Assembly: GCA_007279775.1 (NCBI GenBank)
Contig: QYPD01000002.1
Location: forward strand, 1-14,330
Direction of reading: 5' to 3'
Length of the DNA stretch: 14,330 bases
Source: Spirochaetia bacterium
GTDB taxonomy: Bacteria > Patescibacteriota > Minisyncoccia > UBA6257 > UBA9933
Shown: one piece after another, positions 17-13,139 of the stretch
Layout of the letters: each line of letters starts with the position of its first letter
Numbering within the stretch: position 1 is the first letter of the stretch
The notes under the pieces: model-generated
Told to the model about the DNA's origin: nothing
The model's database searches: none
The model's input: only the letters and a program-made list of their open reading frames with translations
Made by a program: the position numbers and the translations under genes

Positions 17-103
17 GCGCAGGTGGTAGAGCGGTCAATTACAACAGACTGTAAATCTGTCGGCCTTTGGCCTACGGGGGTTCGAATCCCTCCCTGCGCA
101 CCA
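17..103 (+). tRNA. tRNA-Tyr (anticodon GTA)
   Basis: A class II tRNA folds cleanly. The acceptor GCGCAGG (17-23) pairs with CCTGCGC (93-99), with discriminator A100 and an encoded CCA at 101-103. The anticodon stem ACAGA/TCTGT encloses the loop CTGTAAA, which reads GTA. A long variable arm (around 61-76) and the T-loop TTCGAAT are both present. The long arm plus GUA anticodon fits bacterial tRNA-Tyr. It is the only tRNA here with an encoded CCA, and that CCA is also the first three bases of a long inverted repeat. Confidence 0.95.
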
Positions 104-246
104 GGCAGTGAAAACTCGATAAATTTTAACCCTAATTTGTTGAGATTTATTTTTTAGGTTGAGAATATTAACATAAAAAATTTGATTCAGAAAATTAGGT
201 AGTAAGTTAAAATTAGACAAATTACAATCGAGTTTCTACTGCCTGG
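101..246. repeat. Inverted repeat starting at the tRNA-Tyr CCA end
   Basis: The left arm CCAGGCAGTGAAAACTCGAT (101-120) is complementary to the right arm ATCGAGTTTCTACTGCCTGG (227-246) with two mismatches. A weaker inner match lies between about 122-140 and 195-214, so most of the element could fold as one long imperfect hairpin. The right arm is followed by CGCA, which resembles an inverted copy of the tRNA 3' end. No coding capacity is credible inside. It could be a MITE-like insertion, a tRNA-processing stem or a remnant; the sequence alone does not decide. Confidence 0.7.
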
Positions 247-266
247 CGCACACTTTGACATTTCTC

Positions 267-5514: not shown

Positions 5515-5554
5515 TCCGCCTATGGCGGAGATTCCCTGCCTACCGGCAGGCAGG
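5515..5554. repeat. Two adjacent GC-rich palindromic units
   Basis: TCCGCC-TAT-GGCGGA (5515-5529) and CCTGCC-TACC-GGCAGG followed by CAGG (5535-5554) form two small hairpins in the space between tRNA-Trp and the next gene. The first belongs to the same TCCGCC/GGCGGA type as the units at 7734 and 8236. They look like dispersed REP-like units. Nothing else was recognised in 5464-5585. Confidence 0.7.
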
Positions 5555-6771: not shown

Positions 6772-6800
6772 TTGACAAAGAAGGCGAACGGATATAGTAT
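6772..6800 (+). promoter_or_regulatory. Promoter of rplJ-rplL
   Basis: A consensus TTGACA (6772-6777), a 17-nt spacer and TAGTAT (6795-6800). The start of transcription would be near 6807, exactly at the beginning of the L10 leader. Confidence 0.85.
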
Positions 6801-6807
6801 TAAATCA

Positions 6808-6897
6808 AATCCGCAGACAGGAGGCGGCCAAGTAAGCCCTCCCGAGGAAAAGTCAAAAGCTTTTTTATTTGTCTGCGGCCTAAATAGGTCGTTTTTT
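6808..6897 (+). ncRNA. Ribosomal protein L10 leader with attenuator
   Basis: The closing stem CCGCAGACA (6811-6819) pairs with TGTCTGCGG (6870-6878). Inside, GGAGG (6820-6824) faces the CCTCCCGAGG region, with an A-rich internal part as in known L10 leaders that bind L10(L12)4. A second hairpin, CGGCCT/AGGTCG (6876-6891), is followed by TTTTTT (6892-6897) and is a standard terminator. It uses CGG of the closing stem, so the two are mutually exclusive. This gives a simple switch: the L10-bound or unbound leader decides between the closing stem and termination. The identification rests on position and structure, not on a covariance model. Confidence 0.85.
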
Positions 6898-6930
6898 ATT
6901 ATTAAAGATAGCTTTCGGATTTGTTCGTAG

Positions 6931-6994
6931 ATTCGGATGAATTCGCCCGCCTCGCCTTGACGGCGAGTCGAGGCGGGTAGTTTCGGATCGCATT
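6931..6994. repeat. Pre-start repeat split by a 32-bp palindrome
   Basis: The 15 nt at 6931-6945 and the 17 nt at 6978-6994 together equal, base for base, the uninterrupted 32 nt at 11676-11707 before mraZ. Between them (6946-6977) lies a 32-bp GC-rich palindrome with arms CCCGCCTCG/CGAGGCGGG and an alternative inner pairing CTCGCC/GGCGAG. No target duplication is seen at the junctions. Additional TTCGGAT units (6914, 6932, 6982) belong to the host repeat. The rplJ ATG follows 3 nt later. Confidence 0.85.
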
Positions 6995-6997
6995 AAT

Positions 6998-7501
6998 ATG
7001 TTAAACAGAACACAAAAAGGCGAACGGTTAAAACAAGGCGAAGAACTTTTGGAAAAAAACAAGAGCTTGATTTTCGTTGATTTCACCGGAATCGGAGTTG
7101 AAGATATGAAATCTTTGCGCCGGGCGTTAAAAACCGTTGAAGCGAAAATAAAAATCATCAAAAAGAAGCTTTTGAGAATCGCTTTTGAAAAGAAAAAAAT
7201 AGATTTCAATCCGGAGCAATTTGATTCGCAATTGGGCGTGGTTTTTTCGGAAAAAGAGATTTCCGACGTCGCCGGCCCGGTTTACAAATTTTTCAAAGGG
7301 GTTGAAAAGAAAGGATTCAAAATTTTAGGCGCGTACAATTTAAGCGAGAAAAACTTTTTTGACGCGGCGACGACATTAAAAATAGGCCAATTGCCTTCAA
7401 GAGAAGTTTTGCTCGGGCAATTTGTTGGAATGTTGGCAATGCCGATTAAAATGTTTATGAATGTGTTGGAACAAAAATCAAAATTGGTCGATGTAAAATA
7501 A
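6998..7501 (+). CDS. rplJ: 50S ribosomal protein L10
   Basis: A 167-residue L10 of usual length. The N-terminal globular domain shows the typical SLIFVDFTGIGVEDMKSLRRAL and the basic KIKIIKKKLLRIAF pattern for binding 23S rRNA, and SREVLLGQFVGMLAMPIKMFMNVL leads into the C-terminal helix that carries the L7/L12 dimers. It is the first gene of the rplJ-rplL operon, behind the L10 leader, and should be autoregulated there. The start has no Shine-Dalgarno and is preceded by the split repeat. The usual upstream genes rplK and rplA, and nusG/secE, are not next to it. Confidence 0.95.
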   Translation: MLNRTQKGERLKQGEELLEKNKSLIFVDFTGIGVEDMKSLRRALKTVEAKIKIIKKKLLRIAFEKKKIDFNPEQFDSQLGVVFSEKEISDVAGPVYKFFKGVEKKGFKILGAYNLSEKNFFDAATTLKIGQLPSREVLLGQFVGMLAMPIKMFMNVLEQKSKLVDVK

Positions 7502-7616: not shown

Positions 7617-7982
7617 ATGGATAAGTTCAATGATATAATTGAAAAAGTGGAAAAATTGACGGTTGTGGAGCTTGCGGAATTAATCAAGGCTCTCGAAGAA
7701 AAGTTTGGCGTTTCAGCCGCAATGCCCGCTTCATCCGCCTCCGCTGAAGCTTCGGCGGACAAGGAAGAAAAAACCTCTTTCGACGTTATTCTTAAAGCCG
7801 TCGGAGACCAAAAAATCGCCGTTATTAAAGCTGTTAAGGAAGCGACAGGTTTGGGCTTGAAAGAAGCTAAAGATATAGTTGATGCTGCTCCGAAACCGGT
7901 AAAGCAAGGCCTTAAAAAAGCCGATGCCGAAGAACTTAAGAAAAAACTTGAAGACGCGGGAGCGACAGTAGAATTGGCGTAA
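7617..7982 (+). CDS. rplL: 50S ribosomal protein L7/L12
   Basis: A 121-residue L7/L12 of standard length. The N-terminal dimerisation domain (about 1-32, [22 protein letters not shown]) binds L10. A flexible hinge (about 33-54) is Ala/Ser-rich. The C-terminal domain, from about 55 on, recruits translation factors and has the conserved [30 protein letters not shown] and a GATVEL end. Hinge residues 40-48 are encoded by a GC-rich palindrome. There is no Shine-Dalgarno; it is co-transcribed with rplJ and ends in a good terminator. Confidence 0.97.
7734..7759. repeat. Palindrome within the rplL hinge
   Basis: CCGCTGAAGCTTCGGCGG (7741-7758) is an 18-bp palindrome with one G-T pair, and TCCGCC (7734-7739) can alternatively pair with GGCGGA (7754-7759). 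It encodes SASAEASAD (residues 40-48), which lies in the unstructured hinge where extra residues are tolerated. Confidence 0.75.
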
Positions 7983-11490: not shown

Positions 11491-11618
11491 GCTGATATTG
11501 TTTCCCTCAACCCGCTTCGCTCCGTCCAGCGACTCCGCTCGCTAGTCCTCGTCGAGCAATCCCGCTTAGGCGGGAACCATGCTTGCTCGACTGTGGGGTT
11601 TCGTGAACCAATATCAGC
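11491..11618. repeat. Nested inverted repeats in the mraZ leader
   Basis: The outer arms GCTGATATTG (11491-11500) and CAATATCAGC (11609-11618) are perfect and extend by TTC/GAA after one mismatch. Inside are AGCGA/TCGCT with GACT/AGTC, then GTCGAGCAA/TTGCTCGAC enclosing TCCCGC-TTAG-GCGGGA. If transcribed, this makes a closed multi-arm RNA of about 128 nt. It may be a structured leader or an inserted palindromic element. Confidence 0.72.
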
Positions 11619-11657
11619 TTATCTTGATAGAAATTAGAATAATTTAAAAACGATATT

Positions 11658-11707
11658 TTCGGATCCATTCGGATAATTCGGATGAATTCGTAGTTTCGGA
11701 TCGCATT
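11658..11707 (+). repeat. TTCGGAT repeats and uninterrupted pre-start repeat
   Basis: TTCGGAT occurs at 11658, 11668, 11677 and 11695. The 32 nt 11676-11707 equal the two halves found before rplJ (6931-6945 plus 6978-6994), here without the palindromic insert. The mraZ ATG follows one base later. Confidence 0.85.
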
Positions 11708-11708
11708 T

Positions 11709-12140
11709 ATGTTCATCGGAGAATTTAGCCACAATTTAGATAATAAGGGTAGAATCGCGGTGCCGGCGAAGTTTAGAAATAAATTGACCGCCGGAGCGAT
11801 TATCACGCGCGGCCTGGACCGCTGCCTTTTTGTTTTTGATTCCAAAGAGTGGGAAGCGCTGGCGCAAAAATTAATTTCTTTGCCGCTGACGCAAGCGAAC
11901 TCGCGCGCGTTTACAAGATTGATGCTTGCCGGCGCCGCCGATGTTGAATTGGACAAGCAAGGCAGAATTTTAATTCCGGATTATTTGCGCGAATACGCCG
12001 GGTTGAAAAAACAATCGGTGATAACCGGATTGTACAACAGGTTTGAAATTTGGGACGCGGAAAGTTGGAAACAATATAAAACGAAAACCGAAAGCCAGTC
12101 AGACGAGATAGCGGAGAAATTAGGAGAACTCGGTATTTAA
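11709..12140 (+). CDS. mraZ: Transcriptional regulator MraZ
   Basis: A 143-residue protein of normal length with the two SpoVT-AbrB-like DNA-binding half-domains in tandem: DNKGRIAVPAKFR (11-23) and DKQGRILIPDYLR (about 82-94), joined by the helical SRAFTRLMLAGAADVE. MraZ forms a ring and binds TGGGN repeats in front of its own operon, repressing the division and cell wall cluster. The matching repeats at 11435-11478 make autoregulation likely here. It is the first gene of the cluster, followed by rsmH. There is no Shine-Dalgarno; the start is preceded by the TTCGGAT repeat. Confidence 0.96.
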   Translation: MFIGEFSHNLDNKGRIAVPAKFRNKLTAGAIITRGLDRCLFVFDSKEWEALAQKLISLPLTQANSRAFTRLMLAGAADVELDKQGRILIPDYLREYAGLKKQSVITGLYNRFEIWDAESWKQYKTKTESQSDEIAEKLGELGI

Positions 12141-12263: not shown

Positions 12264-13139
12264 ATGTCACACATCCCCGTACTTTTAAAAGAAGTAATTG
12301 AAATTTTAAATCCCAAGCCTGGAGAATTTTTCATAGATGGAACGTTTGGGGCTGGAGGGCACAGCACGGCAATTTTGAAAAAAATCGGTTTAAATGGAAA
12401 ATTATTGGGAATTGATTGGGATAAAAAAGTGATTGCAAATTTCAAATTGCAGATTGCAAATTATAAAAATTTAATCCTGGTTCAGGGTAACTACGCAGAT
12501 ATTCCGGAAATTTTGAATGAGAGAAAGCTGCATAGGGCCGATGGATTGATTATTGATTTGGGTTTGTCTTCTGACCAGTTGGAAAGTTCGGGCAGAGGAT
12601 TCAGTTTTCTGAAAGACGAAATTCTTGATATGAGATTTGATTCGGAAAGCGGAGCGCTGTCGGCTGCGGAAATAATAAACAGTTTAAGTGAAAAAGAATT
12701 AGCCGATATATTTTGGAAGTACGGCGAAGAAGGAAATTCAAGGAGAATAGCCAAAGAAATCGTTGAAAAAAGAAGGAAAAATCGGATAAAAACAACATTT
12801 GAACTGGCGGAAATCGTGGAAAACGCCGTTTCGCGCCGAGGCAAAATACATCCAGCAACGAAAGTTTTTCAGGCGTTAAGGATTTATGTCAACGATGAAC
12901 TGGAGAATTTGGAAAGATTATTGAAAAATTTGGGCATAATTTTAAAACCACAAGGCAGGGCGGCGATAATATCTTTCCATTCGCTGGAGGACAGATTGGT
13001 AAAAAATTATTTCAGAGATATGGCGAAAAGCGGGCGGGCGGAAATTCTGACGAAAAAACCAATTGTTCCGTCTCAAGAAGAAATAAAAAATAATCAAAGG
13101 TCGAGATCAGCTAAATTAAGGGCTTTGTATAAAATTTGA
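12264..13139 (+). CDS. rsmH: 16S rRNA (cytosine1402-N4)-methyltransferase RsmH
   Basis: A 291-residue SAM-dependent enzyme that methylates C1402 in the decoding centre of 16S rRNA. It shows HIPVLLKEVIEIL at the start, SAM motif FIDGTFGAGGHS (23-34), GIDWD (49-53), ADGLIIDLGLSSDQL, GRGFSF and DMRFD, KVFQALRIYVNDEL, SFHSLEDRLVKNYF, and the typical end NQRSRSAKLRALYKI. Length is slightly shorter than the usual 300-315. Residues 56-68 come from a stretch with an 11-nt direct repeat (GATTGCAAATT at 12431 and 12452), but the length there is normal. It is the second gene of the division cluster, as in most bacteria; no Shine-Dalgarno is seen. Confidence 0.97.
   Translation: MSHIPVLLKEVIEILNPKPGEFFIDGTFGAGGHSTAILKKIGLNGKLLGIDWDKKVIANFKLQIANYKNLILVQGNYADIPEILNERKLHRADGLIIDLGLSSDQLESSGRGFSFLKDEILDMRFDSESGALSAAEIINSLSEKELADIFWKYGEEGNSRRIAKEIVEKRRKNRIKTTFELAEIVENAVSRRGKIHPATKVFQALRIYVNDELENLERLLKNLGIILKPQGRAAIISFHSLEDRLVKNYFRDMAKSGRAEILTKKPIVPSQEEIKNNQRSRSAKLRALYKI

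Follow-up and report, generated by a model that had tools for sequence, protein, structure and literature searches.

A 32-bp GC-rich palindrome upstream of rplJ is probably a minimal mobile DNA unit in a Patescibacteria draft genome

Results

A GC-rich palindrome splits a repeat upstream of rplJ

We analyzed a window of 14,330 nucleotides with a G+C content of 0.397, which is contig C25 of a draft genome (hereafter G000; 427,610 bp, 45 contigs, 64.55% complete). The features of interest are listed in Table 1. Between the leader of ribosomal protein L10 and the start codon of rplJ lies a GC-rich palindrome of 32 bp, which is predicted to fold into a hairpin of -22.6 kcal/mol and ends 20 nt before the start codon. 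The original prediction held that the 32 nt preceding mraZ recur at rplJ as 15 + 17 nt with this palindrome between them, and that no base was lost and no target duplicated at the join. Both statements were confirmed letter by letter: positions 6931-6945 and 6978-6994 are identical to 11676-11707, and the join is clean, with a possible shift of its placement by one base (G).

Table 1. Genes, repeats and palindromes in the window.
Feature	Position	Strand	Basis or remark
20-bp palindrome CCTGCCTACCGGCAGGCAGG, one letter off the order-wide 20-mer	5535..5554	.	Sequence comparison
Ribosomal protein L10 leader	6793..6906	+	Rfam RF00557, 38 bits, below gathering score 44
Host element, right part of ~104-bp imperfect hairpin, split by 6946-6977	6911..6994	+	Left border by eye
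32-bp GC-rich palindrome CCCGCCTCGCCTTGACGGCGAGTCGAGGCGGG, putative inserted unit	6946..6977	.	Hairpin fold; absent from the orthologous G001 site
rplJ (ribosomal protein L10)	6998..7501	+	Pfam PF00466
26-bp GC-rich palindrome, in-frame in rplL hinge	7734..7759	.	Sequence comparison
Uninterrupted host element before mraZ, paralogous copy	11618..11708	+	G001 has it too
mraZ	11709..12140	+	Pfam PF02381
Empty site in rsmH (60-nt nested palindrome in G001)	13029..13030	+	Join placed as aligned

Copies of the pre-start repeat and of the palindrome were collected across G000, as had been proposed with the original prediction. With up to 3 mismatches, the 32-nt repeat occurs in 12 places; the 17-nt core of the repeat occurs in 34 with up to 2. 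The palindrome occurs in only 2, both exact although up to 3 mismatches were allowed. Reversed-letter controls returned zero matches in each case, so these counts are not due to chance. The only other palindrome copy in G000 is located at C4:3968-3999.

The 32-nt repeat proved to be the terminal arm of a dispersed, imperfect-hairpin element of ~104 bp with two related ends. A model built from an alignment of 14 copies placed this host element at 35 sites in G000 and at 32 sites in G001, the only same-genus relative compared (a 76% complete draft), after merging 64 and 56 two-strand hits respectively. Its hairpin is predicted from the letters and not from covariation, since two-sided compensatory changes were found at 0 of 27 predicted pairs. 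Judged by eye, several copies stop a few bases short of a start codon, for example at mraZ and rplJ; the left part of the rplJ copy is shorter than in its G001 counterpart. The second palindrome copy occupies the same position within another copy of the element. Among right-end hits of the element (up to 4 mismatches in 21) in the parts of the two genomes that were compared, 59 were uninterrupted and 2 were split by the palindrome in G000, and 29 were uninterrupted and 0 split in G001. One more split row was seen in each genome and was not due to the 32-bp palindrome. Because mraZ and rplJ are each preceded by a paralogous copy of one element, comparing these two stretches alone reveals no event at a single site.

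The ~104-bp element has empty orthologous sites of its own. Two copies in G000 (C4:5419-5529 and C4:6543-6652, L130) are missing from G001 and one copy in G001 (C27:1553-1634, L114) is missing from G000; all three sit between a stop codon and the next start codon. Another copy lies in-frame within an open reading frame (G000 C29:15918-16028, L142), which from its letters we take to resemble an aminotransferase gene, and in this placement it is like the palindromic elements of Rickettsia. A separate stretch of 151 nt at G000 C4:2036 (L130), with inverted ends CCCAGTAGTGAAAACTCGAC / GTCGAGTTTCTACTACTGGG, is also missing from G001. It has ATG at both borders, which looks like the target duplication of a second, MITE-like family, and related arms are present at window positions 95-252.

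Orthologous sites in a same-genus relative are empty

A search with rplJ covered 61 genomes including the window's own and matched in 58, and 30 loci were compared, that of the window and those of 29 relatives. The original prediction would have been undermined by relatives that always carry the palindrome before rplJ; the 32-mer was found in 0 of the 29 relatives' loci. In G001, whose rplJ protein is 88% identical to the window's, the stretch from the L10 leader to the start codon holds an uninterrupted element that lacks the 32 bp. Once the 32 bp are omitted, the two genomes match at 34 of 36 nt spanning the join; the 15 + 17 nt match at 28 of 32, since the bases next to the start codon differ. 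At the second copy, the G001 ortholog of C4:3968-3999 is the element with exactly 32 nt missing there. Alignment with relatives, which had been suggested as a check, uncovered empty G001 sites at both 32-bp loci. The earlier claim of direct evidence for insertion or excision of units needs to be read accordingly: precise mobility of the unit stands on the empty orthologous sites and on other palindromes that behave likewise, and the comparison of mraZ with rplJ by itself concerns paralogous copies.

The window and 20 of the 45 G000 contigs were aligned to 20 of the roughly 80 contigs of G001. Aligned blocks 250 nt or longer numbered 29 (53,586 bases), and within them we counted 44 indels of 12 nt or more; the longer version was that of G000 in 24 instances and that of G001 in 20. 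Only three indels of at least 20 nt had a G+C content of at least 0.6, and all three were palindromes present as extra letters in G000. Besides the C4 copy, these were a perfect 20-bp palindrome at C8:2535, which is intergenic though covered by a mechanical upstream extension of a reading frame, and a 30-bp unit in-frame in murE at C17:6572, both missing from G001. The murE unit has four extra letters beside its hairpin that might be a tag of another kind. The rplJ pair falls outside the 29 blocks and was found separately. One case runs in the opposite direction: rsmH of G001 has 60 nt in-frame beyond the window's rsmH, consisting of a palindrome nested in a palindrome. No target duplication was evident in the clean filled/empty pairs. 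Within the limits of a single relative, orthologous empty sites at the two 32-bp loci and for three further palindromic inserts show that such palindromes are mobile as units.

Several comparisons yielded no clean pair. The palindrome in thrS of G001 was rejected as a clean insert because it replaces other letters, and the 20-bp palindrome at 5535-5554 of the window lies where the G001 region is too different for a clean ortholog comparison. For a second genus pair, 15 of 24 sites in G073 were compared with 20 stretches of G072 and gave 0 clean filled/empty pairs, either because these genomes are too diverged or because the 20-mer lies within longer repeats common to both. A common target sequence was considered and discarded, as the clean sites differ from one another. 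A G seems to stand on one side of the join, and the contexts of the 20-mer in G073 do not all have one.

Related palindromes occur across the order

Of 244 genomes in the order, 93 contain an exact match to the 20-mer CCTGCCTGCCGGCAGGCAGG; the copies total 383, with at most 24 per genome and none in the reversed-letter control. The incomplete G000 holds 4 exact copies. The 32-mer, with up to 3 mismatches, was present in 3 of the 244 genomes. A search of genome contigs, which may omit records near the window's genome, returned one exact 32-mer, from Candidatus Raymondbacteria, and exact matches in viral contigs numbered 0.

GC-rich units often sit within other palindromic elements. A variant of the 20-mer lies inside the ~104-bp element at a different position from the 32-mer (C41, L031). 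In a second family of host repeats, the 20-mer is present in 2 of 6 copies, at two sites separated by 4 nt, and in a third family 2 of 7 copies carry 20- and 16-bp forms at one site, the rest being uninterrupted in both families; these counts refer to the copies shown and not to every copy found. In the distant relative G077, a one-mismatch 32-mer and the 20-mer were each seen by eye between the arms of a larger hairpin.

By eye, the 20-mer seemed to split two tRNA-like D-arms in G073 (L151 position 30 and L153 position 1501). This tRNA reading was abandoned, as ARAGORN predicted no tRNA at either place, whether the 20 bp were kept or removed; its single call was an intact neighboring tRNA-Val.

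The palindrome in the rplL hinge encodes SASAEASAD. When rplL of 28 relatives was aligned, a similar palindrome at the same place was seen by eye only in G009 (L066), and the others have an Ala/Gly-rich or other linker. Upstream of rplJ, other genomes (L055, L056, L065, L066, L068 and L074) have differing ATTCG-rich or otherwise palindromic stretches after the L10 leader (by eye), as if the spot between the leader and the rplJ start had been filled repeatedly across the order.

Y1 transposase and reverse transcriptase as candidate movers

The original prediction noted that no transposase was visible and offered a trans-acting enzyme such as a REP-associated tyrosine transposase explicitly as an inference. 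The search for such enzymes that it suggested found two Y1_Tnp genes in G000, one intact and encoding 236 aa, the other truncated where its contig stops. The intact gene (L045:1318-2028, G000 C37) forms a small self-contained unit with hairpins of the same type before, inside and after it. These hairpins, GAAGTT[GC]AACTTC, have nothing in common with the GC palindromes and have one further full copy beyond the Y1 locus in the part of the genome examined. Compared with the NCBIfam REP transposase model, the intact protein scored 42.7 bits against a cut-off of 80.

Across the order, Y1 was detected in 70 of 244 genomes and the 20-mer in 93, with 27 genomes having both, 66 the palindrome only, 43 Y1 only and 108 neither (odds ratio 1.03, Fisher p = 1.0). 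The unrelated hairpins of the intact gene and this lack of co-occurrence speak against the REP-associated transposase that had been put forward. The null result makes a Y1 mover less likely, though enzymes can be lost and drafts are incomplete. Since an RNA route has been proposed for the hairpins of Allomyces, we also tested reverse transcriptase (PF00078). It was present in 107 of the 244 genomes, 48 of which also had the 20-mer, a weak association (p = 0.063, genome size uncontrolled); the p value was 0.65 for genomes with at least five 20-mers. Co-occurrence across the 244 genomes establishes neither enzyme as the mover.

Discussion

We consider the 32-bp palindrome to be probably a minimal non-autonomous mobile DNA unit that belongs to a wider set of GC-rich hairpins of 20-32 bp, one of which, the 20-mer, is identical to the letter in 93 of the 244 genomes surveyed. 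In the lineage of the window, the palindrome would have inserted exactly into a resident ~104-bp element that follows the L10 leader and precedes rplJ, with no base lost and no evident duplication of the target. The hairpin might be processed in single-stranded form by a trans-acting enzyme. We infer insertion and not loss by parsimony, since copies of the host elements are as a rule empty; the comparison covered parts of two incomplete drafts, with a single same-genus relative.

Enzymes of the Y1 (HUH) class act on single-stranded hairpins without target duplication, and in principle such an enzyme is the best fit to the lack of duplication seen here. A Y1 transposase of this genome, acting in trans on the palindromes, has the presence of the two Y1 genes in its favor. 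Nevertheless, the hairpins around the intact gene, the REP transposase score below its cut-off and the odds ratio near one do not favor it, and we regard this mover as doubtful. Slightly less likely still is gene conversion, by which the palindrome would have entered one host element once and then been copied to another through recombination or template switching. Both 32-bp copies interrupt the element at one and the same position, and the 15 nt before and the 9 nt after are identical in both; one of the two may for this reason have arisen by gene conversion. This process would not account for the 20- and 30-bp units at unrelated places, nor for the repeat family in which the 20-mer is inserted at two sites 4 nt apart, and it still requires a first insertion.

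Alternatively, the palindromes might be ancestral and have been cleanly deleted in G001. Hairpins are prone to deletion, and only two genomes were compared per site. Such a history, however, would require four or more independent exact losses, with no direct repeats at the flanks apart from one base at rplJ. Copies of the host elements are mostly uninterrupted in both genomes, and the rsmH insert runs the opposite way, being filled in G001. Precise loss thus appears improbable. We find it hardly credible that the palindrome has a fixed regulatory role in the rplJ leader, or that misassembly produced it. Its strong predicted fold and its placement directly after the L10 leader, close to the start codon, would suit a regulatory role, but it is missing before rplJ in G001 and at the loci of the other 28 relatives, and the same letters occur at an unrelated second locus. 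Both copies lie inside contigs with orthologous flanks, which argues against misassembly.

Among known systems, those closest in behavior to our units are the mobile GC clusters of yeast mitochondrial DNA (PMC4478555) and the hairpin elements of sponge and Allomyces mitochondria (PMC2800124); the units are members of neither, as they reside in the draft genome of a prokaryote. These reports describe short GC-rich palindromes in an AT-richer genome, distributed sporadically, with filled and empty sites in relatives. They also describe nesting, merging and an occasional location in genes without frameshift. No dedicated enzyme is known there, likewise here. Filled and empty sites of GC-rich palindromes in relatives are found in our material as well, as are sporadic distribution, nesting and in-frame placement in genes, on a bacterial chromosome and not in mitochondrial DNA, with letters unrelated to the mitochondrial clusters. 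Allomyces elements lack a flanking duplication, as do the units here (PMC2800124), while yeast clusters have a putative two-base (AG) target duplication, none of which was seen here (PMC4478555).

The likeness to bacterial REPs is partial. REPs are described in PMC3733652 as palindromes of 20-40 bp that are intergenic and sometimes in genes, and our units of 20, 30 and 32 bp agree with this. The 20- and 32-bp units start and finish with the stem and lack an unpaired GTAG or CGTC; the GTAG adjoining the copy at rplJ is part of the host element and also occurs in the empty site. REPs usually exceed 100 copies per genome (PMC2817692), whereas the incomplete G000 has 2 exact copies of the 32-mer and 4 of the 20-mer. 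A further mark of REPs is a cognate RAYT transposase (PMC2817692) flanked by the repeat. The 20- and 32-bp units here are untagged, few and do not flank the intact Y1 gene, which has other hairpins around it, the second gene being cut at a contig end. CGTC REPs likewise lack a transposase (PMC3733652). For REPINs, precise excision of a palindromic unit without its own gene has been reported, yet REPINs are inverted REP pairs with a spacer, and loss of single palindromes was not found in that study (PMC3116915); at rplJ, C4 and C8 a single palindrome appears to be inserted. MITEs are defined by terminal inverted repeats and target duplication, and there is no duplicated flank at rplJ, C4, C8 or murE. 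The palindromic elements of Rickettsia, as described in PMC3733652, lie in-frame in protein genes like the units in murE and rsmH. They differ in belonging to unrelated bacteria and in their letters, and several of our units are intergenic. Our literature searches found no paper joining 'miniature inverted-repeat' with 'Patescibacteria', none with the letters of the 20-mer and, among the papers listed, no account of such palindromes in this group; the main text of PMC6006769 does not mention Parcubacteria, Patescibacteria, CPR or Candidatus.

More tentatively, these hairpins could form a class among the smallest mobile DNA in bacteria: single units of 20-32 bp that would insert precisely without target duplication, often in other hairpin elements, and spread without a dedicated transposase by means of the replication or repair machinery or an unrecognized enzyme. 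The spread of short palindromes is an old open question both in bacteria, for REPs, and in mitochondria, for GC clusters. With the present pair of congeneric species, occupied and empty sites are resolved to the single base, and the units are too short to have ends separate from the hairpin, so that the mover becomes testable. The palindromes also alter conserved genes in-frame, namely murE and rsmH, as seen from their empty orthologs, and rplL, as suggested by comparison of its hinge.
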